19,748 bases of DNA, taken from contig JAFSIU010000148.1 of NCBI GenBank assembly GCA_017439615.1, forward strand, positions 1 through 19,748, read 5' to 3'. Source of the stretch: Bacillota bacterium. Lineage in GTDB: Bacteria; Bacillota; Dehalobacteriia; UBA4068. A program made the translations under genes and the position numbers. Positions 296 through 13,239 of this stretch are shown here, one piece after another (within the stretch, counting starts at the first letter, position 1; the number at the start of each line of letters is the position of its first letter). Under the pieces are notes generated by a model, which was not told the origin of the DNA, ran no database searches, and saw nothing but the letters and a program-made list of their open reading frames with translations.

Positions 296-718
296 ATGGA
301 AATAGTAAAAAAATGCTGCCTGAACGGCCTCAAAAGCGGCTGGCAGGTTTTTCTGAAAATGCTGAAGGTTGTGGCACCGATTTATTTTGCGGTTGCTTTT
401 CTTGATTTCTGCGGAATTTTGCCCAAAATCGCAGTCTGGCTGCAGCCCGTGATGCAGATTTTCGGTCTGCCCGGAGAGGCTTCCATCGTTTTGGTGCTGG
501 GCAATCTGGTAAATGTCTATTCTGCTCTGGGCGGTATGGCAGCGCTTACTCTCACTGTCAAGCAGTGTACCATAATCGCGGGTATGATACTCATTTCCCA
601 TTCGCTTATTATGGAAGCTGTCATCATCAGACAATCCGGTGTTTCTGCATGGGGGACACTTGTGCTGCGCTTTTGCGCCTGCATAGTGTTCGGCCTTTTG
701 CTGAATATGATGCTTTAA
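296..718 (+). CDS. Nucleoside recognition (Gate) domain membrane protein A
   Basis: A 140-residue, very hydrophobic protein with about four membrane segments. The central part (LPGEASIVLVLGNLVNVYSA, then ISHSLIMEAVI) matches the style of the Gate/nucleoside-recognition domain (PF07670) found in SpmA/SpmB, YjiH-like proteins, nucleoside transporters and FeoB. Family members probably form half of a gated membrane pathway; the substrate is not known. The start at 296 has AAGGAA 5 nt upstream. The partner gene begins 12 nt after the stop and encodes a second Gate-domain protein, so the two probably work as a heteromeric pair, as SpmA and SpmB are thought to. It is too short to be a complete transporter by itself. 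Family assignment is from sequence style; function is unassigned. Confidence 0.75.
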   Translation: MEIVKKCCLNGLKSGWQVFLKMLKVVAPIYFAVAFLDFCGILPKIAVWLQPVMQIFGLPGEASIVLVLGNLVNVYSALGGMAALTLTVKQCTIIAGMILISHSLIMEAVIIRQSGVSAWGTLVLRFCACIVFGLLLNMML

Positions 719-730
719 GGGGGTGGCGGA

Positions 731-1237
731 ATGGATTTTTTAAGCTGGCTCAAAGCAACTGCGCTTGGCTGCGCGGATAATCTTTTTCAAATGATAATCA
801 TCATCATTCCCCTGATGATAGCCATTGAATTTCTGAAGGAATTCAAGCTTCTGGAAAAGGCATCGCCCGCTCTTGCTCCCGCAATGCGTGTCATCGGTTT
901 GCCTGCAGAGGCAGTGCTGCCTATTCTGGCAGGACTTTTCCTTGGTATCATCTATGGCGCGGGGCTCATCATTCAGTCTGCCAAGGACGGCTCCCTCACG
1001 CATAAGCAGATGACTCTCGTCTGCAGCTTTTTGGTCATCTGTCATTCCATTGTCGAGGACCATGCTCTGTTCGGGGCACAGGGTGCGCAGGCGGTGCTGC
1101 TCATTTTCCTGCGACTTGCCTTTGCAATCCTCATCACCTTCATTCTCAATAAGGTATTGCCCGAGAAAAAGGAAGCCCCCACCGACAAGGATTTTGCTGT
1201 GCTCAATTCTCTTGACACCTGCGGACATCAGCACTAA
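731..1237 (+). CDS. Nucleoside recognition (Gate) domain membrane protein B
   Basis: A 168-residue membrane protein and the partner of the preceding gene, read from the same transcript; the RBS AAGGGGGTGG (717-726) overlaps the upstream stop. Hydrophobic segments are near residues 18-36, 58-78, 93-110 and 120-140. The motif LVICHSIVEDHALFGAQGA fits the CHS-x-x-ED signature of nucleoside-recognition proteins, and the earlier IGLPAEAVLPILAGLFLG mirrors LPGEASIVLVLG of protein A. This supports two related Gate halves. The tail (from about residue 145) is hydrophilic and ends in Cys-Gly-His-Gln-His, a possible metal ligand set that is not part of the core domain. A strong terminator follows at once. 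The transported substrate cannot be inferred here. Confidence 0.75.
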   Translation: MDFLSWLKATALGCADNLFQMIIIIIPLMIAIEFLKEFKLLEKASPALAPAMRVIGLPAEAVLPILAGLFLGIIYGAGLIIQSAKDGSLTHKQMTLVCSFLVICHSIVEDHALFGAQGAQAVLLIFLRLAFAILITFILNKVLPEKKEAPTDKDFAVLNSLDTCGHQH

Positions 1238-1434: not shown

Positions 1435-1911
1435 ATGGGCGTTTTGGCAAATGAAATAGAAAAATATATCAAGCAAATGCTGGCGGCCTCCACAAACGGT
1501 ATGGTCGAGCTGCAAAGGAGCGATCTGGCGGATATCTTCACCTGCGTGCCTTCGCAGATCAACTATGTGCTGGATACCCGTTTTGCCAATCAGATGGGCT
1601 ATCATGTTGAAAGCCGCAGAGGCGGCGGCGGATATATCCGCATCGTCAAGCTTTATCCCGCGAGCGATGCTGAGCTGCTGCAGAATATCAATGCCACAAT
1701 GGCAAACGGTCTTTCGGAGCAAGCGGCATTTTCGCTCATCGGCAGATTGGTGCAGGAGGAGCTGCTAACTGTGCGTGAGGGCAAGCTGCTTTCTTCAATG
1801 CTGCAGAACAGTGTACTGAAGCTGCCTGCAAGAGATGCCGAGCTTTTGCGCGGCAGATTGCTGAAAAATGCTTTTATCAATCTTATGAGAAAAGATTTTG
1901 AGGAGGAATAA
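1435..1911 (+). CDS. ctsR: Transcriptional repressor CtsR
   Basis: CtsR is the dimeric winged-helix repressor of class III heat-shock genes (clp genes). At 158 residues it has the family's normal length. Residues 1-70 form the HTH with its wing; the hallmark SRRGGGGYIRI lies at about 60-70, and its arginine/glycine wing is what contacts the GTCAAA heptads and is the reported target of McsB. The C-terminal half is the dimer and McsB-contact region. It is the first gene of its own regulated operon, with a perfect heptad operator at 1354-1370, so it is autoregulated. The ATG at 1435 is preceded by GGAAGGG. The RBS of mcsA is embedded in its last codons, so translation is coupled. Confidence 0.97.
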   Translation: MGVLANEIEKYIKQMLAASTNGMVELQRSDLADIFTCVPSQINYVLDTRFANQMGYHVESRRGGGGYIRIVKLYPASDAELLQNINATMANGLSEQAAFSLIGRLVQEELLTVREGKLLSSMLQNSVLKLPARDAELLRGRLLKNAFINLMRKDFEEE

Positions 1912-1913
1912 AA

Positions 1914-2399
1914 ATGCTTTGTGATAACTGCAAGAAAAACCCTGCCACAGTGCATATGGTCAAGGTGATAAACGGTGTGAAAACCGAGCAGCATCTTTGT
2001 GCCGAATGTGCGCAGAAGAACAATGAGCTGTCATTCAATAAGGACAGCATCGCTGATTTCTTCCCCTTTTTCGGACAAATGCCGCAGGTGAAAAAGGCGG
2101 CCTTTGAGCCTTGTCCCACTTGCGGAATGAGCTTTGCCGAGCTGCAGAAATCGGGTCTTGTCGGCTGCGATAAATGCTATGCGCATTTCAAGCCTTATAT
2201 AGCACAGCTTCTGCCCCGCATACAAAAAGGCAATGAGCATCAGGGCAAGGTTCCCGGCAAGGATTATGCCGAGCTCACCAAGGCCAAGGAGCTGCAGGCT
2301 TTGAAGACCGAGATGACAAAATGTATTCTTGCCGAGGAATTTGAAAAAGCAGCGGAATTGCGCGACAAAATCCGTGCTTTGGAAGGCGGTGCGAAATAA
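1914..2399 (+). CDS. mcsA: McsA, zinc-binding activator of McsB
   Basis: McsA binds zinc and activates the McsB kinase; it also tunes CtsR. The 161 residues carry four CxxC pairs, at about C3/C6, C29/C32, C67/C70 and C85/C88, as expected for two zinc sites. A C-terminal UVR-type helix pair (about residues 126-157, with [17 protein letters not shown]) resembles the UVR motif of ClpC and UvrB. The start ATG at 1914 is 2 nt after the ctsR stop, with AGGAGGA at 1901-1907. The gene's stop TAA shares its last A with the mcsB ATG, so the activator and kinase are translationally coupled. No cysteine of the four pairs is missing. Confidence 0.96.
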   Translation: MLCDNCKKNPATVHMVKVINGVKTEQHLCAECAQKNNELSFNKDSIADFFPFFGQMPQVKKAAFEPCPTCGMSFAELQKSGLVGCDKCYAHFKPYIAQLLPRIQKGNEHQGKVPGKDYAELTKAKELQALKTEMTKCILAEEFEKAAELRDKIRALEGGAK

Positions 2400-3442
2400 T
2401 GGTCAATATGAATGTTAATCTGCCCTGGACAGAAGTAAAGGGCGAAAACTCGGATATAGTGCTTGCAACCAGAGTCCGTCTGGCTCGTAATATCGCCGAT
2501 CGTCTGATGCCGCAGAAGCTTGATGCAGAGCAGGGAGGACAGGTGCTCAATCAATGTCTGGGCGTGCTCAACAAATGCGATTCTCCCAAATTTACCTGCT
2601 GCAAAATGGCAGAGCTGCACCCCTTGGAAAGAGGCGTGATGGTGGAAAAGCATTTGGTCAGCCCCGCTTTTATGAATCCTTCGGACTATGCTCTGGCCGC
2701 AGTCTCCGAAGATGAAAAAACCTGCGTAATGATCAATGAAGAGGATCATATCAGAATTCAATGCCTGCTTCCCGGCCTGCAGATCGAGGCTGCATGGCAG
2801 GAGGCATCCCGCATTGATGATATGCTGGCCAAAGATATCACCTATGCCTTTGATGCGCAGCTTGGTTATCTCACAGCCTGCCCCACCAATCTCGGCACAG
2901 GTCTGCGAGCATCGCTGATGGTGCATTTGCCTGCGCTCACTCTCACCGGCAGACACAAGGCGATTTTTGCTAATCTTGCCCGTATGGGAATGACTGTCCG
3001 CGGTATGTATGGCGAGGGCAGCGAGGCAGCCGGCAATCTTTATCAGATATCCAATCAGGTAACCTTGGGAATCTCCGAGCAGGATATCATCGAGAATATG
3101 CATAATGTTACTCTGCAAATTGTCGAGGCCGAACGCGAAGCCCGCAAGGCATTGCTGCAAAAAAGCGAAATCGATTTTCAGGACAATGTCTGGCGTGCCT
3201 ATGCCGTGCTTGCCCACAGCCGCAGAATAAATATCGGCGAAATGATGGAAAAGCTTTCCTATCTGCGCTTGGGTATTGATATGGGTATGATAGAGGGCAT
3301 TACTCCGCATCAGCTGACCCAGCTGATGATCAAGGGACAAACAGCATATATTCAAAAAGCCGCTGACAAGCCCTTGAATGAAATCGGCATCGAATGTGCC
3401 AGAGCAGATATGCTGAGACAGGAGCTTCCGCTGCTGAAATAA
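2399..3442 (+). CDS. mcsB: Protein arginine kinase McsB
   Basis: McsB uses ATP to phosphorylate arginines on misfolded proteins and on CtsR; phospho-arginine then targets clients to ClpC-ClpP. The 347 residues show the phosphagen-kinase fold signatures: TRVRLARN at about 24-31, NEEDHIR at 113-119 with the catalytic acidic residue, and CPTNLGTGLRAS at 161-172 with the active-site cysteine. Length is slightly under the B. subtilis protein. At the C-terminus the allosteric phospho-arginine motif, RDxxRA in well-studied McsB, reads ADMLRQ (about 336-341), keeping D and the second R only. The start overlaps the mcsA stop. ATG 2408 is a weaker alternative start. Confidence 0.97.
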   Translation: MVNMNVNLPWTEVKGENSDIVLATRVRLARNIADRLMPQKLDAEQGGQVLNQCLGVLNKCDSPKFTCCKMAELHPLERGVMVEKHLVSPAFMNPSDYALAAVSEDEKTCVMINEEDHIRIQCLLPGLQIEAAWQEASRIDDMLAKDITYAFDAQLGYLTACPTNLGTGLRASLMVHLPALTLTGRHKAIFANLARMGMTVRGMYGEGSEAAGNLYQISNQVTLGISEQDIIENMHNVTLQIVEAEREARKALLQKSEIDFQDNVWRAYAVLAHSRRINIGEMMEKLSYLRLGIDMGMIEGITPHQLTQLMIKGQTAYIQKAADKPLNEIGIECARADMLRQELPLLK

Positions 3443-3495
3443 CACATTTTTTAGCAAGGAATTGATTATACTAAAAACCGAAAGGGATGATTCAA

Positions 3496-5943
3496 TTGTT
3501 GAGATATACACAATCAGCGCAGAATGCGCTCAAACTTGCAGAACAAAAAGCTCGCGAAGATGGCTCTGCCGTGATCGGCAGTGAGCATATTTTGTGGGGA
3601 ATCGCCAAGGAGGGCAGCGGATTTGCCGCCGCACTTCTGGCACAAAGAGAAATAAAACCCGAGGATATCGATGCTATCACCGACAAGGAAGGGAATAAGG
3701 GCAGCTTTTCAGGCTTTTCGCCCCGTTCAAAGCTTGCCCTGCAGATAGCCGCCGAGCAAACCGTGCGTATGGGCAATGGCTTCATCGGCACCGAGCATAT
3801 TTTGCTGGGGATTTTGCTTGAAGGCGGCGGTGTGGCAGCAAGCTTCTTGAAGGAGAATTGCGGTATCACTCCCGAGGAGCTTTTCCGTCTTATTGTCGAG
3901 GCAAAGGGCAATGCTGCCTCCGAAGGCGGCAGCGGCGAATGTCCTCATGCTGCCAAGGGTAATGCTGCAGCAGACCCCAACAGCAAAACCCCCACTCTCG
4001 ATAAATTCGGCAGAGATCTGACCGCCATGGCACGCGAAGCCAAGCTTGATCCCGTCATCGGCAGAGAAAAGGAGGTTCAGCGTGTCATTCAGATCCTTTC
4101 CCGCCGCACCAAGAACAATCCCGTGCTGATCGGCGAGCCAGGTGTCGGTAAAACCGCCATCGCCGAGGGTCTGGCACAGATGATAGTCAAGGGCGAAGTT
4201 CCCTCCACTCTGCGTGATAAGCGCGTGATGATGATCGATGTTTCTTCCATGGTCGCAGGCACCAAATATCGCGGCGATTTCGAGGAAAGAATGCAGAATC
4301 TGGTCGAAGAGGTCCGTAATGCTGATGATGTGCTGCTTTTCATCGATGAGGTGCATACTCTTGTGGGTGCAGGCAGTGCTGAGGGTTCTGTCGATGCCTC
4401 GAACATTCTGAAGCCTGCTCTCGCGCGTGGTGAGCTGCAATGCATCGGCGCGACAACCCTCGATGAATACAGAAAGCATATCGAAAAGGATGCCGCCTTG
4501 GAGCGCCGCTTCCAGACCGTGCTCGTTGGCGAGCCCACTCCCGAGGATGCTATCGCTATTTTGACAGGCCTGCGTGATAAATATGAAGCACATCACCGTG
4601 TCAAAATCACCGATAAGGCGATCGAGGCAGCCGTCAAACTCTCCGACCGCTATATCTCCGACCGTTATCTGCCCGATAAGGCAATAGACTTGATCGACGA
4701 GGCTTCCTCTATGGTACAGCTTTCGGCAAAGGTCGCACCGCTCGATTTGCAGGAAATGGAAGAAGAGCTTGCATCCTTGAAAACCGAAAAAGAAGCAGCC
4801 ATTGCCGCACAGGATTTCGAAAAGGCAGCCGAGCTGCGCGATGCCGAAAAGGCACAGCTGCATAAAATCGAACAGGCCAAGGCAGATTGGGAACGTGAGC
4901 AGCAGGCACAAATCATCACCGTTGATGAAGAGGAGATTGCCAAAATTCTCTCCGATTGGACCGGTGTTCCCGTGACCCGCCTTTGCTCCGATGAGGCAGA
5001 GCAGCTCCTGCACCTCGAAGAAAAGCTGCACGAAAGAGTGATTGGTCAGGATGAAGCCATCAAGGGTGTCTCAAAAGCTATCCGCCGTGCCCGCGCAGGC
5101 TTAAAGGATGTCAAGCGCCCTGTCGGCTCTTTCATCTTCGCAGGCCCCACAGGTGTCGGCAAAACCGAGCTTGCCAAGGCTCTCGCCGCTTCGCTTTTCG
5201 GCTCCGATGAAAATATGATCCGCCTCGATATGAGCGAATATATGGAAAAACACAATGCCTCCCGTCTGGTCGGCGCACCTCCCGGCTATGTCGGCTATGA
5301 AGAGGGCGGTCAGCTCACCGAGGCAGTGCGTCGCAATCCCTATTCCGTTATCCTGCTCGATGAGATAGAAAAGGCTCATCCCGCCGTCTTTGATATGCTG
5401 CTTCAGGTGCTTGATGACGGCAGACTCACCGATAACACAGGCAGAACCGTCGATTTCCGCAATACAGTGATCATCATGACCTCCAATCTCGGTCTTACCG
5501 AGGGCAAGAAAAAAGCAGTTCTGGGCTTCGGAGTTTCCGAGGAGAAGCAGGAAGGCGAGCACAATGAAATGAAATCCAGAGTGGAAGAGGCGCTTAAAAA
5601 GGCTTTCCGCCCCGAATTCCTCAATCGTATCGACGATACCTTCGTTTTCCATTCCCTGACAGGCGAGCAGATCAAGGAAATCGCAGGCATCATGGTTCGC
5701 GATTTGCAAAAACGCCTTGCCGAACGCGAAATCACTCTCGCCGTCAGCGATGAAGTCTATCAGAAAATTGCCGAGGTTGGCTTTGATGAGCTTTATGGCG
5801 CGCGTCCCCTGCGCCGAGCCATTCAGCGTCATCTCGAGGACACCCTATCCGAGCAGATGCTCGAGGGCAAGATCGCAGACGGCGATCATATCGAGGCTGT
5901 TCTCATTGACGGAGAAATTGCTTTCAAAAAGCAGGGAGAATGA
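3496..5943 (+). CDS. clpC: AAA+ unfoldase ClpC
   Basis: ClpC is a hexameric ATPase that unfolds proteins and feeds them to ClpP. Two N-terminal repeats (GSEHIL near residue 30 and GTEHIL near 100) keep the glutamates that recognise phospho-arginine. NBD1 has GEPGVGKT and LLFIDEVH. The middle domain has a UVR-like helix ([17 protein letters not shown]). NBD2 has GPTGVGKTE and [12 protein letters not shown], and a VLGFG loop fits the ClpP-docking loop. I chose TTG 3496, giving MLRYTQSAQ as in other ClpC proteins, because AAAGGG at 3481-3486 is well spaced for it but abuts the ATG at 3487, which would add three residues. It is the last gene of the CtsR operon, 53 nt after mcsB, and a terminator follows. 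Confidence 0.97.
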
Positions 5944-5955
5944 GTCTTATGTCGA

Positions 5956-5987
5956 AATAAGCAAGGAGAAATCCTTGCTTATTTTTT
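5956..5987 (+). terminator. Terminator of the ctsR-clpC operon
   Basis: A perfect 12-bp stem AATAAGCAAGGA (5956-5967) / TCCTTGCTTATT (5972-5983) with a GAAA tetraloop is followed by a run of T (from 5982). It lies between clpC and radA. A TTGCTT...CATAAA pair 17 nt apart, overlapping the right arm (from about 5975), might serve as a radA promoter, so read-through is not the only way to express radA. Confidence 0.88.
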
Positions 5988-6020
5988 GTTTAATTTGCAT
6001 AAAGCGAAAGGAGCCAAAAA

Positions 6021-7382
6021 ATGGCGAAAACAAAAACGATATTTGTCTGCAATGAATGTGGTGCTTCGAGCGTTCGCTGGATGGGGCGCTGCCCTGCCTG
6101 CGGCGAGTGGAACACTCTTGTCGAGGAAAAAACCGCTGTCGAAGCCTCGCCCAAGGACAAAAGAGGTCCTGCCCGCGGCGGCAAAATTCAGCCCATCACG
6201 CATATCGAAGAAGAAAAGCTGCCGAGAATGGTGCTGGATATGGAAGAATTCGATAATGTTTTGGGCGGCGGCCTGGTGCCCGGCTCCTCGGTGCTTTTGG
6301 GCGGCGAGCCGGGAATAGGCAAATCCACCCTGCTGATGCAGACGGCAGCGGCTGCTGCCAAAAAATACGGCAAGGTGCTTTATATCACGGGTGAGGAATC
6401 CGCCGCACAGGTCAAGCTGCGTGCTACGCGCCTTGATGCTGCAGATGAAAATGTCTTTCTCATCTCCGAGACCAATCTCAATGCTGCACTCGAGATGGCA
6501 GAAAAAGAGGATTTCAAGCTGATTATCCTCGATTCCGTGCAGGCAGTTTTCTGCGAAAATACCGAATCTGCCGCCGGCAGCGTTTCGCAGGTCAGAGCCT
6601 CGGCAGCCGCAATGATAGAATTCGCCCGTCGCAGCAATGCCGCCGTGATTTTGGTCGGCCATGTCACCAAGGAGGGTATGCTTGCAGGCCCTCGTGTCCT
6701 GGAGCATATGGTGGATGCGGTGCTCTATTTCGAGGGCGAGCGCAGCACCTCCTTCCGCATTTTGCGTGCGGTGAAGAATCGTTTCGGCTCCACCAATGAG
6801 ATCGCCGTTTTCGAAATGGCGGAAAAAGGTCTTTTGCCTCTTTCCGAACCCTCGGGCTTTTTCCTCTCGCATCGCCCCGCCGATGCTCCCGGCTCGGCTG
6901 TGACCTGTGTTATGCAGGGAACTCGCCCTGTGCTGCTGGAGGTGCAGGCCCTCACCTCGCCAACCTCCTTCGGCAATCCGCGCAGGCTGGCTGCCGGCTA
7001 TGACTATAACAGGCTTCTGATAATAATTGCCGTTCTTGAGCGCAAGCTGCATCTGCCGCTTAGCTCGCAGGATGTCTATATCAATATGGCAGGCGGCATG
7101 CGTGTTGATGATCCTGCCTGCGATCTGGCTGTGGCAGCAGCGATAGCATCTTCGGTGAAGGGCATGCCCATCGAAAAGGAAATCGTCATCATGGGTGAGC
7201 TGGGTCTGCTGGGTGAGATTCGCGGCATTTCCCAGGACAGCCGCCGCATAAAGGAGGCCGCCCGCTTCGGCTTCACCAAGCCTATGCTGCCTTTCTCCAA
7301 TCAAAAGAATCTGAAGGAAAACTTCCCCCTCGCCGTCGCGGATATCGAAAAAGCCCTGTTCTATCTTGGGCTGAATGGCTGA
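6021..7382 (+). CDS. radA: DNA repair protein RadA
   Basis: RadA (Sms) is a RecA-related ATPase, a DnaB-like branch-migration helicase acting in recombinational repair and transformation. The 453 residues hold a zinc finger (C10, C13, C24, C27), a RecA-like core with Walker A GEPGIGKST (95-103), Walker B LIILDS (about 167-172), the RadA-specific KNRFG motif (252-256), and a C-terminal Lon-protease-like domain without catalytic function. Length is normal. The ATG at 6021 is preceded by AAAGGAG. It follows clpC after a terminator, an order shared with many Firmicutes in which radA lies next to the clpC operon. A strong bidirectional terminator follows. Confidence 0.97.
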   Translation: MAKTKTIFVCNECGASSVRWMGRCPACGEWNTLVEEKTAVEASPKDKRGPARGGKIQPITHIEEEKLPRMVLDMEEFDNVLGGGLVPGSSVLLGGEPGIGKSTLLMQTAAAAAKKYGKVLYITGEESAAQVKLRATRLDAADENVFLISETNLNAALEMAEKEDFKLIILDSVQAVFCENTESAAGSVSQVRASAAAMIEFARRSNAAVILVGHVTKEGMLAGPRVLEHMVDAVLYFEGERSTSFRILRAVKNRFGSTNEIAVFEMAEKGLLPLSEPSGFFLSHRPADAPGSAVTCVMQGTRPVLLEVQALTSPTSFGNPRRLAAGYDYNRLLIIIAVLERKLHLPLSSQDVYINMAGGMRVDDPACDLAVAAAIASSVKGMPIEKEIVIMGELGLLGEIRGISQDSRRIKEAARFGFTKPMLPFSNQKNLKENFPLAVADIEKALFYLGLNG

Positions 7383-7473: not shown

Positions 7474-8127
7474 TCAAAAATCTATTTTTTCAAAGCTTTT
7501 TTGTGAAGCCTTGCAAGCAGCGGCAGTTGCGGCCGCATATATCACAAAAGCCGCAAGCAAAATGCTGAGCTGCTGCCCCGCATAGCTGAAATCAAGCGTA
7601 TTTAGCCATTGCAAGCTTGGCAAATGGTGCAGAGCCTCCGCAATACCGATAATTATGAAATTTATAATGATGAAAATCACAAAGGGCTTGCCGATAGTAT
7701 ATGCCGTTTTGAAAAAGCCGCCGAGAAAAATAACATTGAATGCCATAAATATCAGCAAGACAAATGCCAGAAAAATGAGATTGGCGCTCATCAGGGCATT
7801 ATGCTTATAAACTGCGGCCTCCGACAAAAAAGTCATTCTTATGCAGGTGCAAAGTGCGCAGCCGAAAAAGGCGAGCATCTGCAGAAAAACGGCTGATGCA
7901 TATTTTGCTTTTACTACATCGGTTTTTTTGACAGGCAGCAGCAGGGAATATGCTATATCATTAGCCTCTCGCCCCAGCTGATAGCCTTGGAATATGCCGA
8001 GGCAGACAAAGAAAGCACCGCAGAGAATAGGATATCCGGGGATAAATGTCATAAGCGAAAAGGCAAGGAATAAAAAAGTCAGCAGCGGTGTCGCCAGCCT
8101 GAGTTCTTTATAAAGCAAGTTTTTCAT
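7474..8127 (-). CDS. ABC-2 type transporter permease
   Basis: A 217-residue polytopic membrane protein with about six hydrophobic segments. The opening MKNLLYKELRL is the usual cytoplasmic start of ABC-2 permeases of the small exporter class (ABC2_membrane_5-like). There is one six-helix unit, so two copies are expected per transporter. I chose the ATG at 8127: AAAGGAGGCG lies 5-12 nt upstream on this strand, while the ATG at 8145 precedes that RBS. The start lies 20 nt inside the end of the ATPase gene, so the two are coupled. Last gene of the XRE-ATPase-permease operon, ending before the bidirectional terminator. The substrate is unknown; self-immunity or peptide export are options for such cassettes but unproven. 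Confidence 0.85.
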   Translation of the reverse strand: MKNLLYKELRLATPLLTFLFLAFSLMTFIPGYPILCGAFFVCLGIFQGYQLGREANDIAYSLLLPVKKTDVVKAKYASAVFLQMLAFFGCALCTCIRMTFLSEAAVYKHNALMSANLIFLAFVLLIFMAFNVIFLGGFFKTAYTIGKPFVIFIIINFIIIGIAEALHHLPSLQWLNTLDFSYAGQQLSILLAAFVIYAAATAAACKASQKSFEKIDF

Positions 8128-8827
8128 GGAACGCCTCCTTTTCATGCTTCAGCATAACAGCTTCCAGGCTTTCGCCTTGGGTGAAGCCCTCTATGCTGCC
8201 TGTATATATGATGCGGCCGTCTCTGATATAGGTGATATCGTCCGCACATTTATCGAGGTCGGAGGTGATATGCGTTGAAAACAGAATGGAAACTCCCTGA
8301 GCTTTCAGATAGCGGAAAATATCAAGCAATTCCTCTCTCGAAACGGGATCAAGACCGCTGGTCGGCTCATCCAAAATCAAAAGCTTTGCTCTGTGAGAAA
8401 GTGCGATTACCAGATTCAGCTTCACCTTCATTCCGGCAGAAAGCTCCGAGGGTGTTTTATTCGCATCAAGGGAGAAAAGCTTCATATATTTTTCGCAAGT
8501 TTCATCATCCCAGTCTGCAAAGAATCGCTTTGTGGTTTCAAGCAGCAGGCCGATCTTCTTCTTTTGATAATAATCAACCGCACCGCCTGCATAGCCTATG
8601 CGCTGCTTGATGGCAGATTCATTGTCCTTCATATCCAGGCCGAAGAATTCAACCTTTCCTTCCGAGATATGCACCATATTCATAATGGCCTTCAGTGCAG
8701 TTGTTTTTCCTGCGCCGTTTCTTCCTATGAAGCCCATGATGGTTCCTTTTTCCATGCTGAAGGAAGCATGCTGCAGCTTGAAATTGGGATATTCTTTATA
8801 AATATTTCTGACCTGAAGAATCTTCAT
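8108..8827 (-). CDS. ABC transporter ATP-binding protein
   Basis: A 239-residue ATPase that powers the permease encoded next to it. Walker A is GRNGAGKTT (35-43), Walker B is LLILDEP with D-loop SGLD, and the switch histidine is in STHITSD. The signature is LSAGM instead of the common LSGGQ, as in the YtrB/EcsA-like exporter ATPases. The tail after the D-loop is short, with no added domain. The start at 8827 has GAAGGAGCG upstream; a longer reading from 8854 would overlap the regulator gene and bypass that RBS. It begins 11 nt after the regulator stop, and its end overlaps the permease start by 20 nt. Confidence 0.93.
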   Translation of the reverse strand: MKILQVRNIYKEYPNFKLQHASFSMEKGTIMGFIGRNGAGKTTALKAIMNMVHISEGKVEFFGLDMKDNESAIKQRIGYAGGAVDYYQKKKIGLLLETTKRFFADWDDETCEKYMKLFSLDANKTPSELSAGMKVKLNLVIALSHRAKLLILDEPTSGLDPVSREELLDIFRYLKAQGVSILFSTHITSDLDKCADDITYIRDGRIIYTGSIEGFTQGESLEAVMLKHEKEAFHEKLAL

Positions 8828-8838
8828 TTGTCGCTCCT

Positions 8839-9234
8839 TCAAAACTGGCTGCACTTCACAAGAGCCATGCCTTGTCTTTTATCTGCCAAAAGCAGCAGTT
8901 TTCCGCCATATTGCAGATCAAACATTTTCATCAGCGCATCGGGAAGCTGTATGCTGCCTGTTTCTGAAATGTCCAGAACTCCGCAGACAAGCTCCTCTTT
9001 GTCTGAAAAATTGCTGTTTATGGCCTCCCGCAGCGGTCTGTTCACCAGCTCATCCAAAGAGATTTTATATAAATTTGCCAGCTTGACGCAATTTGCTATG
9101 TCCGGCGAGGAATCTCCCGACTCCCATTTCGCGACGGTTTGACGGGAAACAGAGATGATTTCCGCAAGCGATTCTAGAGTATAACCGTTTCTCTGCCTTA
9201 AAAGATTCAGGTTTTCTGCAATGCATATATCCAT
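8839..9234 (-). CDS. XRE-family regulator with AbrB-like C-terminal domain
   Basis: A 131-residue DNA-binding protein. Residues 6-62 are a Cro/C1-type HTH (NLNLLRQRNGYTLESLAEII, then SVSRQTVAKWESG). Residues 80-131 (GVLDISETGSIQLPDALMKM, ending GMALVKC) look like a SpoVT/AbrB swapped-hairpin domain, normally a second DNA-binding or dimer module. It is first in the operon with the ABC ATPase and permease, as often seen for self-contained transporter cassettes controlled by their own HTH gene. The RBS is AAGGAGGAT. The promoter just upstream carries an inverted repeat over the -35, so autoregulation is likely. The ligand is unknown. Confidence 0.88.
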   Translation of the reverse strand: MDICIAENLNLLRQRNGYTLESLAEIISVSRQTVAKWESGDSSPDIANCVKLANLYKISLDELVNRPLREAINSNFSDKEELVCGVLDISETGSIQLPDALMKMFDLQYGGKLLLLADKRQGMALVKCSQF

Positions 9235-9325: not shown

Positions 9326-9357
9326 AAAAAGCCACAGCGATTCTCATCGCTGTGGCT
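9326..9357 (-). terminator. Terminator of the ECF transporter operon
   Basis: A perfect 12-bp stem AGCCACAGCGAT (9330-9341) / ATCGCTGTGGCT (9346-9357) has a 4-nt loop and, on the minus strand, is followed by TTTTTCG. It closes the operon ending at 9383 and insulates the XRE promoter. Confidence 0.88.
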
Positions 9358-9382: not shown

Positions 9383-10072
9383 TCATTTTTCTTTTGACAT
9401 GAAAATGCCGTATTTTTGCTCAAGTCTCTGCATTTTCTTTTGCAAGGGTTGATAAAGCAGGGCAAGAAAGATGATGGTGGAAATGCAATGCGTGATATCC
9501 ATAGGAAGCGCGACGATATATGCCGCCAGCAGCGAATCCGCCGATGAAATCGCTTGTATCATCAGGAGTGAGGCCGGATTCATGATGAGTGCGAATATGC
9601 CAAAAACAGCCGCTCCGCCGAAGAGGCACACCTGCCATGTTGCAGGCTTTTTGCCAAAGAACAGCTTACCTGCCAAAAGTCCGATAAGCCCCCAGCAGAG
9701 CATTTGCCACGGTGTCCACGGCCCCTGCCCGAAAACGAAATTGCTGACAAGGCCTGCGCAGGCGCCGATTAAAAAGCCGTTTTTTGCACCGGTGAAAACG
9801 CCTGCCAGCACTATCATTGCGGTGATGGCCTTGATGAAGGGGGTATAGAAAAATGCTGCTCTGCCGACCACGGCCAGCGCACAGAAAAGAGCGCAAATGA
9901 CCATTTCGGCAGCACGCTGCTCCCGTCTTTCATTTTGCAGGGCAAGCAGCAAAAATCCGCCTCCCATCATCAGCAGGCTCGGAACATAAAAGCTTCGCGC
10001 TCCCCAAAGCATCAGCAGCAGGGCAGCGGCAAAGCACAGACATAATGAAATTGTGAGAAATGCTTTTTTCAT
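9383..10072 (-). CDS. ECF transporter S component (probable cobalamin-specific)
   Basis: A 229-residue membrane protein with about six hydrophobic segments, the substrate-binding unit of an energy-coupling factor importer. The phrase FGQGPWTPWQM followed by GLIGLLAGKLF is typical of ECF S components. I take the ATG at 10072, which has GGGAGAAG upstream; further upstream in-frame sequence belongs to the 3' end of the ATPase gene read in another frame. It is last in an operon that starts with a cobalamin riboswitch and a DUF4430 lipoprotein, so B12 or a B12 precursor is the likely substrate (CbrT-like role). The specificity is inference from context; the family call is sequence-based. It lies 25 nt after ecfA and before a terminator. 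Confidence 0.85.
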   Translation of the reverse strand: MKKAFLTISLCLCFAAALLLMLWGARSFYVPSLLMMGGGFLLLALQNERREQRAAEMVICALFCALAVVGRAAFFYTPFIKAITAMIVLAGVFTGAKNGFLIGACAGLVSNFVFGQGPWTPWQMLCWGLIGLLAGKLFFGKKPATWQVCLFGGAAVFGIFALIMNPASLLMIQAISSADSLLAAYIVALPMDITHCISTIIFLALLYQPLQKKMQRLEQKYGIFMSKEK

Positions 10073-10097
10073 CTCTTCTCCCGGAAAGTGATTTGTT

Positions 10098-11522
10098 TCA
10101 GCTGCCGAGCAGGGTGTATATTTTCTCCGAAGCGGCTGTATCAGGTGTTCTGTAATAGCTGCTTTGTGCCATAAATTCCTGTGCAGGCATTTGGCAGGCA
10201 ATTTCTTTGTTGAAAAGCAGAATGATTTCATCTGCCGCCTCCGCGCAAAGCTGCATATCATGCGTGGCAAAGCAGACAGCAAATCCTTCTGCCGCCAAAT
10301 CCCGCAATATGGCGGCAAGCTCTTTTTTTGCAGGAAAATCCAGACCGCTGGAAGGTTCGTCAAGCATCAGCAGAGCAGGCTTTTTCAAAAGTAGTCTGAT
10401 CAGCGCCGCCTTTTGCAGCTCGCCACCCGAAAGGTCGAGAAAATGGCTTTCGAGCTTTTCTTCCAATCGGAAACGCTGCACAAGCGGCATCCATTCCTCT
10501 TGCGGTGCGGCAGCGGCAAGCTCCTCGTGCAGGCTGCTGTGCGTGAAAATATCCCCTGCATTCTGCGGCAGCAGGCAAATTTTGCCCGAAGCTTTGATTT
10601 TTCCTGTCAATGGCGGCAGAATTCCCGTCATCAGCTTCAGCAGGGTGGATTTGCCGCAGCCGTTTGCGCCGATCAGTGCCGTGCAGCAGCCCTTTTTCAG
10701 CTCCAGCGAGAGATTTTGCAGGATATATTCGCCCTGCCTTTCATATTTATGCGCCAGCTGCTTGATTTCAAGCACCGCAGGGGAGGCCGGCTGCGCTTTT
10801 GCGCTTGATATAACTTTTTTCTGCTCTTTTATGCTTTGCGGCAGCGCCGTTTTTTCATCGAAAAATATCAGCTTCCCATTTTGCAGCAAAAGCAGTTTGC
10901 TGCACAGGGGCAGGATTTCTTCGATAGAATGCTCGGCAATCAGCACCGTCATATTGCGGCGGCGGCAATATTTCTGCAGCAGGGCGAGGAAGTCGCCGGC
11001 GGCAACAGGGTCGAGAGATGAAATCGGCTCATCAAGCAGCAGCAGCTCCGGCTCGGCGATAAGCACCGAGGCCAGCGCCACCTTCTGCCGTTCTCCGCCC
11101 GAGAGCTTGTCGATAGGCTTGGAAAACAGCTTTTCCAAGCCGAATTCGGCACAGATTTCGGCCAATTTCAGGCGTATTGTTGCGGGCGCGGTGTTCAGAC
11201 TTTCCAAAATGAAGGCAAGCTGCGCGCTGACAAATTCTGAGGTCAGCATGCAATCCCGCCCGACATAGCCGATGGAGCGCACGCTTTCTTTTTCCGAAAT
11301 TTCCTGTAAGAGCGTGCTTTTGAAGCGTATTTCGCCGCTTTTTTTGCCATGGGGCGCGATCTCTTTTTTCAGCAGGCGCAGCAGGGTGGATTTTCCGCAG
11401 CCGTTGGCCCCGGCAAGCAGCACAAAATCGCCCTGCTCCAAGCTGAATCCGATATTTTCAAGGGCAGCTTGCGCCGCTCCGTTATAGGCAAAGCCTAAAG
11501 CCTTGCAGCTAAGGATTTCCAT
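10098..11522 (-). CDS. Fused two-domain ECF ATPase (EcfA)
   Basis: A 474-residue protein with two complete ABC domains, replacing the usual separate EcfA1 and EcfA2. Domain 1: Walker A GANGCGKST (38-46), signature LSGGERQ (140-146), Walker B LLLLDEP (160-166), switch His198. Domain 2: Walker A GANGCGKST (285-293), signature LSGGELQ (364-370), Walker B LLMLDEP (384-390), FATHD switch. A linker of about 20 residues near 228-250 joins them. It energises the S component and EcfT of the same operon. The chosen ATG at 11522 has GAGGTGAT upstream and lies inside the end of ecfT (28-nt overlap), so translation is coupled. Both catalytic sites look intact. Confidence 0.93.
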   Translation of the reverse strand: MEILSCKALGFAYNGAAQAALENIGFSLEQGDFVLLAGANGCGKSTLLRLLKKEIAPHGKKSGEIRFKSTLLQEISEKESVRSIGYVGRDCMLTSEFVSAQLAFILESLNTAPATIRLKLAEICAEFGLEKLFSKPIDKLSGGERQKVALASVLIAEPELLLLDEPISSLDPVAAGDFLALLQKYCRRRNMTVLIAEHSIEEILPLCSKLLLLQNGKLIFFDEKTALPQSIKEQKKVISSAKAQPASPAVLEIKQLAHKYERQGEYILQNLSLELKKGCCTALIGANGCGKSTLLKLMTGILPPLTGKIKASGKICLLPQNAGDIFTHSSLHEELAAAAPQEEWMPLVQRFRLEEKLESHFLDLSGGELQKAALIRLLLKKPALLMLDEPSSGLDFPAKKELAAILRDLAAEGFAVCFATHDMQLCAEAADEIILLFNKEIACQMPAQEFMAQSSYYRTPDTAASEKIYTLLGS

Positions 11523-12352
11523 TTCATCACCTCGTATAAATGCAGAATGGCTGGCAGCAGGAAGAAAGCAGACAAGGTCAGAAGCAGCCAAAAATCAGGA
11601 GCAGCAATTCTTATCAAAGGGAAAAATTGCGCCGAAAGCAGCCTGTGCCCCAAAAGCAAAAGTGCAGCTATCAGTACGAAAAGCAGCAGAAAAAGCAAAT
11701 CACTCCTGCCGAAGCGAAAGCTTGTGAAGCTGCTGCGCGGTGTCAGTGCATAGCCTCTTGCCCTCATCGATGCCGCACGGTCAAGGCTTTGCTCCAGCTC
11801 TCGGTCAAGCAGGGAGGAAATAAGCTGTGTGCCATATTTCAGCCGCCCTTTCAAGCCCTGGCCTGCCGCATCCTCACCGATGCCCTTTTTCGCCTCATGA
11901 ATTTGCCGGAGTCGGGCATTGAGCCTTGGAATGAAATAAAAGACCAGCGAGAGGAACATACAAAGCCTCGGAAAGCGCTTGCCGAGCAGGGCGGCGAGCT
12001 TATCAGATCCGAAAAGGCGATTGAAGCAAAAGCACCAAAAAAGCGTCGCAATGAGCATACCGGCAGCACAAAAGCCATATAGCAAGGCCTCAAGAGTGAT
12101 CGGATTTCCGAAAAGATAAAAAAGAATGGTCACTCCCTGATGATTGAAAAGCGGATTGAAAAGACTTGCCAAAATGGCGAATGGCAGCAGCGCAAGCAGG
12201 GTTTTGAACGCTTTTTTGCCCTCCAAAAGAAACCAAAATCCAAACCCGCCAAAGAAAGAAAGCAGAGTGATCCATGGATTAAGGCAGCAAACCGTCAGCA
12301 AAATAACGGCAAGGAAATATATTAAGATGATTATGGGATGTCTTTTTTCCAT
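11495..12352 (-). CDS. ecfT: ECF transporter transmembrane protein EcfT
   Basis: EcfT is the membrane scaffold that couples the ATPases to the S component. The 285 residues show several membrane helices, a cytoplasmic helical region (about 150-210) and a final pair of helices. The coupling motif Ala-Arg-Gly is clear at about 198-200 (SMRARGYA); the first coupling helix is less canonical (EAKKG, about 163-167). The start at 12352 has AAAGGAGC. The gene follows the lipoprotein gene by 66 nt and overlaps the fused ATPase gene. The late segment LLFLLLFVLIAALLLL fits the extra membrane helix before the C-terminus. The dedicated T, A and S genes indicate a group I-type ECF transporter. Confidence 0.9.
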   Translation of the reverse strand: MEKRHPIIILIYFLAVILLTVCCLNPWITLLSFFGGFGFWFLLEGKKAFKTLLALLPFAILASLFNPLFNHQGVTILFYLFGNPITLEALLYGFCAAGMLIATLFWCFCFNRLFGSDKLAALLGKRFPRLCMFLSLVFYFIPRLNARLRQIHEAKKGIGEDAAGQGLKGRLKYGTQLISSLLDRELEQSLDRAASMRARGYALTPRSSFTSFRFGRSDLLFLLLFVLIAALLLLGHRLLSAQFFPLIRIAAPDFWLLLTLSAFFLLPAILHLYEVMKWKSLAARL

Positions 12353-12418
12353 GGCTGCTCCTTTCTTTCGTGATTATCTCAATTCATTTTTGTGTTCCGA
12401 ATTGCAGGGAAGGGTGCC

Positions 12419-12907
12419 TCACCACTCCAGGCCAAGGTCAGCGCCCATATCGCAGGTGTATTTGAATTCGATGATGTCGCCGTCAGAGAGCATTGCTTCA
12501 TTTGCGCCAACCATTGAGGATTCGCCGTTGACAAAGAACAGCCAGCCCGAAAGCTCTCCGCAATCTCCGCCATAGATATTGCCGATGCCTGTGATATATG
12601 AGCCGTCAACCACATCAATATGCAGCCTTTCTTTTTGGGCAAAGCGCTGCACCAGCTGCAAAACAGTTTCGTTTTCATAAAAATCCAGCGAAATGGGAGC
12701 GACGATATATCCGTTTTCGGGGATAAGCGACTTTTTGTCCGCTGACAAGCCTTTCAGTGCTTCTTCATTGGCAAGTATCGTTTCGCAGCTGATGACAAGC
12801 TCGCAGCTGCCTGCAGCTTCTTCATTGGGTGCAAACAAGGAGCAAGCTGCAGCTAGTGCAACGATGATGAGAAGTAGAGCGACGAGTAACAGTTTTTTGT
12901 TTTTCAT
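12419..12907 (-). CDS. DUF4430 lipoprotein, likely surface cobalamin-binding
   Basis: A 162-residue secreted lipoprotein. Residues 1-22 are a lipoprotein signal: KNKK start, long hydrophobic core, lipobox ending AAAC with Cys22 as the lipid anchor. The mature part carries a DUF4430 domain, the fold found in the beta-domain of intrinsic factor/transcobalamin (hallmarks DCGELSGWLFFVNGE and GDIIEFKYT near the end). Bacterial DUF4430 proteins are often tied to B12 uptake. The start at 12907 has GGAGGCG; upstream in-frame codons lie within the riboswitch and terminator. It is the first gene under the cobalamin riboswitch and precedes ecfT. I infer it captures corrinoid outside the cell for the ECF importer. 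Binding itself is not shown by the sequence. Confidence 0.85.
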   Translation of the reverse strand: MKNKKLLLVALLLIIVALAAACSLFAPNEEAAGSCELVISCETILANEEALKGLSADKKSLIPENGYIVAPISLDFYENETVLQLVQRFAQKERLHIDVVDGSYITGIGNIYGGDCGELSGWLFFVNGESSMVGANEAMLSDGDIIEFKYTCDMGADLGLEW

Positions 12908-12936
12908 AAGCGCCTCCAAACGATGTTTTCTGTGCA

Positions 12937-12964
12937 AATAAAAACGCACCCCTTTCGGGGTGCG
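12937..12964 (-). terminator. Riboswitch expression-platform terminator
   Basis: On the minus strand, GCACCCC (12957-12963) and GGGGTGC (12946-12952) pair around a GAAA loop, then GTTTTTATT follows. It lies between the aptamer and the lipoprotein start, so ligand binding can end transcription. An upstream stem (AGCAT 12966-12970 with ATGCT 13001-13005; CAGACC 12980-12985 with GGCCTG 12995-13000) is a candidate companion structure. Confidence 0.8.
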
Positions 12965-13009
12965 GAGCATAACAAGAAACAGACCTTCAAAAAAGGCCTG
13001 ATGCTTCTT

Positions 13010-13195
13010 TTTCCCCCTTGCCCGGGAAAGCACTTCGCATCGGACAAGGTCTTTCGACTTGGCTTCATTCCTGCACGGAGCGCCTTCTCATTCTTGCGAA
13101 CAATGGCATTTGCTCCGGAGGTCAGCTACACGGCAGTGGCTGCTGTACGGGATTCTCACCCGTTTCCCTTTTTCCGAGCGCATATTTGGGATTTG
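13010..13195 (-). promoter_or_regulatory. Cobalamin riboswitch
   Basis: The minus strand shows the class signatures in order: GGGAAACGGGTGAGAATCCCG (GGTGAGAATCCCG at 13148-13160), CCACTGCCGTG (13129-13139), and a B12-box-like GAAGCCAAGTCGAAAGACC (13048-13066). P1 can form from CGCTCGG (13174-13180) with CCGATGCG (13036-13043), with one bulge. The region is followed by a terminator at 12937-12964. It controls the lipoprotein-ecfT-ecfA-S operon. The ends are approximate. This region accounts for most of the 359-base gap between the lipoprotein gene and the YchF-family gene. Confidence 0.9.
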
Positions 13196-13209
13196 GTAAA
13201 AGATGAATT

Positions 13210-13239
13210 TATATAAAGCTTTCACCGCCAAATCGGCAA
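13210..13239 (-). promoter_or_regulatory. Likely promoter of the riboswitch operon
   Basis: On the minus strand, -35 TTGCCG (13234-13239) and -10 TATATA (13210-13215) are 18 nt apart, about 30 nt before the aptamer. No strong terminator is visible between it and the YchF-family stop at 13267, so some read-through from that gene is possible. Confidence 0.5.

Follow-up and report, generated by a model that had tools for sequence, protein, structure and literature searches.

A predicted riboswitch-controlled ECF importer of the CbrT type with a transcobalamin-beta-like DUF4430 lipoprotein in a Bacillota bacterium

Energy-coupling factor (ECF) importers are described as binding their substrate with the S component itself. 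In 2007 Burroughs et al. (PMC1796856) reported operons in which genes for secreted DUF4430-like SLBB proteins accompany those for a CbiO-like ATPase and a CbiQ-like membrane protein; they also described alpha/alpha-toroid fusions and proposed that B12 is scavenged by extracellular capture. The prediction of CbrT, the S component of the Lactobacillus delbrueckii importer ECF-CbrT, is credited in PMC5997447 to Rodionov et al. 2009, which may describe these operons already. Here we analyse a 19,748-nucleotide stretch, referred to as the window, from Bacillota bacterium assembly GCA_017439615.1 (contig JAFSIU010000148.1), in which a cobalamin riboswitch precedes genes for a DUF4430 lipoprotein, EcfT, a fused EcfA and an S component (Table 1). 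Based on the riboswitch, the kinship of the S family to CbrT, a lipoprotein fold near the cobalamin-binding beta domains and a conserved operon, we propose, with a probability of roughly 0.75, that the locus encodes a group I ECF importer which belongs to the CbrT type, is under riboswitch control and takes up cobalamin or related corrinoids, and that an accessory DUF4430 lipoprotein, transcobalamin-beta-like and anchored at the surface, captures the corrinoid. A sequence-only reading of this DNA had described an importer for corrinoids that works alongside an intrinsic-factor-like surface protein, and this much is well supported; the arrangement is less new than that reading implied, extracellular capture beside CbiO/CbiQ-like genes having been proposed in 2007 (PMC1796856).

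Table 1. Features of the gene set, in the order of transcription (window coordinates)
Feature	Position	Strand	Basis or remark
Whole gene set		-	order riboswitch, DUF4430 lipoprotein, EcfT, fused EcfA, S component
Cobalamin riboswitch aptamer RF00174	13026..13211	-	cmscan 59.3 bits, E 1.1e-12, model 1-189/189
Terminator-like hairpin, 8 bp then TTTTTATTT (T tail)	12945..12964	-	between aptamer and lipoprotein start
DUF4430 lipoprotein, 162 amino acids, transcobalamin beta-domain-like	12419..12907	-	ATG 12907; PF14478 match
EcfT membrane coupling subunit	11495..12352	-	homologues, CbiQ matches in aligned family, ARGY motif
Fused EcfA-EcfA' ATPase, 474 amino acids	10098..11522	-	two ABC_tran stretches, PF00005 E 1.7e-52
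CbrT-like S component, 229 amino acids	9383..10072	-	PF07155 E 2e-10, PF12822 E 3e-8
Terminator-like hairpin, 12 bp, TTTT	9330..9357	-	after S gene, operon end

The gene order of the sequence-only reading is borne out by Rfam, Pfam and homologue alignment, and the locus has what marks a group I ECF importer, T, A and S genes of its own within a single operon. A BtuF-fold binding protein and a BtuC permease, the parts of a BtuCDF-type system, are not what the operon offers, its lipoprotein and S component matching other families. The S family stands closer to L. delbrueckii CbrT (6fnp_A, E 1.1e-15) than to other solved S families, the next match in the PDB lying at E 0.0021, and the single window sequence finds 6fnp_A at E 1.3e-4. 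Two other identities were set aside for the CbrT match: folate, from the sole NCBIfam match, to a folate-family model at 36.1 bits against a cut-off of 60, and riboflavin, from the name of a Pfam family matched by the protein. While the window EcfT itself has no Pfam match at E 1e-3, it carries the conserved ARGY motif, phmmer finds 96 homologues of it in the other loci fetched for comparison, and 8 of the 12 aligned members of its family, the window's own not among them, match CbiQ (PF02361). GANGCGKST and LSGGE are read in each half of the EcfA, the best NCBIfam models for which are ECF_ATPase_1 and 2, both under their cut-offs; these two halves are the sole exception to an otherwise unremarkable picture of repeats within the operon.

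The aptamer matches RF00174 over its full length at 59.3 bits, against a gathering threshold of 31.5, as expected of the cobalamin riboswitch called from the letters alone. It is the only match at the gathering threshold in the window and the only one at E<=0.001 in the assembly (1.26 Mb and 74% complete, an incompleteness to which every absence from it reported here is subject), and a second model, R1, trained without it, found it again at 62.7 bits. The hairpin downstream of the aptamer is likely the expression platform, judging by its position and folding: a 57-nucleotide stretch around it has a z of -3.69, and 87 nucleotides (13010-12924) out-fold 200 of 200 shuffles (z -4.67). A search for terminator-like hairpins returned 13 sites in the region where 6.8 were expected; one downstream of an aptamer is consistent with riboswitch control by cobalamin.

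First in the operon behind the riboswitch, where the sequence-only reading had put it, stands the lipoprotein, whose DUF4430 identity holds against PF14478 (E 7e-13, 49.3 bits, curated cut-off 23.8). An LAAAC motif behind an N-terminal hydrophobic stretch is a putative lipobox, which would place the protein at the cell surface, and GGAGG precedes the ATG; longer starts, such as GTG 13033, were rejected as lying inside or beside the aptamer. It is the only DUF4430 match in the assembly. The predicted structure (pLDDT 93.6) has the beta-grasp fold with a beta-hairpin after the helix that marks the transcobalamin-like clade of SLBB proteins, and its nearest folds are the cobalamin-binding beta domains of haptocorrin, intrinsic factor and transcobalamin, in keeping with the intrinsic-factor-like fold proposed earlier. 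An alpha/alpha toroid is found neither in this DUF4430-only protein nor in the operon, the gene upstream of which encodes YchF (NCBIfam); the rest of the assembly was not searched for DUF4430-free toroid proteins.

Conservation of the arrangement was followed in a survey of DUF4430, EcfT, ATPase and riboswitch co-occurrence of the kind suggested alongside the sequence-only reading. A scan with the S family gave at least 579 confirmed relatives, the best 80 of which were fetched, so that distant ones are under-sampled; 72 of these loci carry EcfT, and 68 were kept for having at least 1200 nucleotides upstream (4 were shorter). Taking adjacent to mean less than 250 nucleotides between match ends, we found DUF4430 directly before EcfT in 56 of the 68 operons, with a gap of 11-43 nucleotides between match ends in 50 of the 56, and elsewhere in the operon in 3. 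Among the 25 loci with EcfT that were selected through DUF4430 (24 and the window), the two are adjacent in 20, the match lies 580-640 nucleotides away in 4 and elsewhere in 1. Together the sets make 97 EcfT operons, or 93 after dropping the 4, with adjacency in 76 (73 of 90 without the duplicates L050=L077, L048=L093 and L044=L145). Going by their record titles, most of the S-selected loci come from Bacillota (such as Paenibacillus, Clostridium, Acetobacterium and uncultured Clostridia) and one from an archaeon (L114).

DUF4430 is present in 39 of 61 surveyed genomes, from which 40 stretches, covering part of all matches, were fetched. Within these DUF4430-selected stretches, a same-strand cobalamin riboswitch lies at most 1 kb upstream of 16 of 54 DUF4430 frames, where genome density predicts about 0.05, and within 5 kb of 23 of 34, where it predicts about 0.15. 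The background is 222 RF00174 matches in 129 Mb (genome sizes rounded) and was counted with RF00174 itself, the riboswitches of the loci having been found with R1, trained on 23 RF00174 matches from the same loci. Such gene sets are widespread and their role was largely predicted in 2007 (PMC1796856); that prediction gains strength from the kinship of the S component to CbrT and from these riboswitch statistics.

Elsewhere in the survey, one 6.4-Mb genome holds nine DUF4430 and ten listed cobalamin riboswitch matches within about 75 kb (L053-L056, G041:C1:5454001-5530000), with open frames of up to 3635 amino acids. Of the 104 fetched loci that encode a CbrT-like S component (counting duplicates), 54 have ATPase domains and S component in one open frame, mostly of 780-1130 amino acids (L033, L035, L083, L090, L123 and others); a tethered S component of this A-A'-S kind sits oddly with models in which S leaves the ECF module in each cycle. 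Two loci, from Acetobacterium paludosum and a Eubacteriaceae genome, have an extra S-component-like match upstream of the DUF4430 gene (L111 1995-2891, L136 1887-2780) and look as if they were operons with two S components.

Cumulatively, these findings suggest the following course of events. Low cellular cobalamin would let the riboswitch pass transcription through the terminator, and read-through would yield the products of all four genes, from the lipoprotein to the S component. The lipoprotein, whose part in corrinoid capture we infer from fold and linkage, would bind the corrinoid outside the membrane and either concentrate it locally at the CbrT-like S component or present it to that component, which, as EcfA/T hydrolyses ATP, would then topple the corrinoid across the membrane. 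Direct hand-off from lipoprotein to S component is hypothetical.

Several observations weigh against this proposal. No DUF4430 is seen within the fetched stretch of 9 of the 68 S-selected operons, and in 7 of these 9 a riboswitch lies 126-225 nucleotides before EcfT, so that the importer there presumably works without DUF4430; such operons suggest that it can do without the lipoprotein, which is then not obligatory. The L. delbrueckii complex ECF-CbrT imports cobalamin in purified form, and the available text of PMC5997447 mentions no extra binding protein. The fold search of the S model, which cannot separate substrates and was used for fold assignment alone, is topped by folate S components and leaves 6fnp unlisted. 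Sequence profiles link DUF4430 to the animal carriers weakly: profile A2 finds nothing in the PDB at E<=1, and the wider profile A5 reaches haptocorrin 4kki at E 0.02. In transcobalamin the toroid contributes part of the binding site (PMC1796856), and no second DUF4430 protein is found in the assembly. Two FecCD/BtuC-like permeases, both under the BtuC cut-offs, are encoded elsewhere in the assembly, so the operon need not be the only corrinoid route. Finally, no experiment on a bacterial DUF4430 protein, whether on binding or on transport, was found in the open-licence literature, searched mostly as titles and abstract openings.

Keeping these points in mind, it is possible, though short of an even chance, that the CbrT-type importer is self-sufficient and that the lipoprotein only concentrates, stores or protects corrinoid at the surface without ever docking on S. 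The DUF4430-free operons and the activity of the purified L. delbrueckii complex speak for this, as does the membrane-anchored look of many DUF4430 proteins (a lipobox in 26 of 84 small frames, by a crude pattern that misses some), whereas the tight DUF4430-EcfT spacing, kept across many Bacillota, favours a transporter partner. That the lipoprotein has nothing to do with corrinoids, binding a metal, a polysaccharide or another ligand and standing in the operon by chance, is very unlikely. The title of structure 3u7z calls it a putative metal-binding protein, and lone DUF4430 proteins occur in three same-family relatives (L065-L067, in G001, G013 and G018; that of L065 with a lipobox), where the fetched stretches hold neither ECF genes nor a cobalamin riboswitch and the ligand may differ; conserved adjacency to CbrT-type ECF genes and a riboswitch linkage far above genome density argue the other way. 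RtpR requires adenosylcobalamin. A DUF4430 gene adjoins rtpR in Lacticaseibacillus rhamnosus, according to a proteomics paper (PMC9963975).

Relatives often add long DUF4430 proteins beside the DUF4430, T, A and S genes; 65 frames of at least 420 amino acids with a match were found, some of them a short protein within a long frame. Eight were hand-picked for a domain scan, 7 from loci with EcfT and one (L058) from a locus without it. SLH surface anchors accompany DUF4430 in all 8, and an alpha/alpha-toroid family (SQHop_cyclase_C or Prenyltrans) scores above cut-off in 4 and below it in 2 more; toroid and DUF4430 together make the two-domain plan of transcobalamin (PMC1796856). With a single DUF4430 in its incomplete assembly and YchF as upstream neighbour, the window operon would be a reduced form. 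A further, doubtful proposal is that the lipoprotein and the CbrT-like S component are the two halves of a corrinoid clamp at the membrane, S replacing the toroid; ECF importers working with an extracytoplasmic binding protein would then make up a class, and the window would be the minimal form of it. If the two proteins touch, the view that ECF importers bind substrate by the S component itself would change, and animal intrinsic factor would be tied to bacterial uptake through a widespread operon family. DUF4430, still named for its unknown function, gains a candidate ligand and a candidate partner, both open to testing, in many Bacillota.

The host fits a corrinoid user dependent on import, as far as its gene content tells: the assembly has a single B12-binding domain match, in a MetH-like frame, and no match to CbiC or PduO, the only two synthesis or salvage proteins covered by the search. 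The MetH-like protein (L153, G000:C97) has nothing beyond its B12-binding domain, and its match to the methionine synthase model goes no further than position 855 of 1182. It is unlikely that the system takes up, in place of complete cobalamin, a corrinoid precursor or an incomplete corrinoid (cobinamide, for instance, or a lower-ligand compound): CbrT transports cobinamide too (Santos et al. 2018, PMC5997447) and the riboswitch would govern salvage genes alike, but the carrier-like fold and the CbrT kinship point to the corrin ring itself, and CbiC and PduO are unmatched, other salvage enzymes lying outside that search. Directly downstream of the operon, on the same strand, Pfam finds an ABC-2 type transporter pair and an HTH_3 regulator (window 7474-9234), which nothing in the present evidence ties to B12. 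Window 296-1234 and 1435-7382 hold two Gate-domain membrane proteins, then CtsR, a UVR-motif protein, an ATP:guanido phosphotransferase and two ATPases, the last four of which we take to be McsA-like, McsB-like, ClpC-like and RadA-like; this is an ordinary Bacillota stress operon.

Set beside known systems, the window shares with those of PMC1796856 a secreted DUF4430-like protein next to CbiO-/CbiQ-like genes. The available part of that paper names no S component and its main text lacks the word riboswitch, whereas the window operon has both an S component and RF00174; its toroid fusions contrast with the DUF4430-only lipoprotein here. ECF-CbrT of L. delbrueckii (PMC5997447, PDB 6FNP) has an S component of the same sequence family and the ECF mechanism, but its ECF module is common to several S components, while the window operon brings its own T and fused A; the word lipoprotein is absent from the main text describing ECF-CbrT, whereas DUF4430 is encoded in the window operon. 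Human transcobalamin, intrinsic factor and haptocorrin are soluble carriers that add an alpha/alpha toroid; the window protein is a beta-domain-like lipoprotein sharing 12-17% identity with the beta domains of the animal carriers. BtuG and BtuH of Bacteroides (PMC6143338, PMC8941943) are surface lipoproteins capturing B12 for uptake, the very role proposed for the window lipoprotein, yet BtuG has a beta-propeller fold and BtuB as its partner transporter (PMC6977713), with no ECF importer, where the window pairs DUF4430 with ECF.
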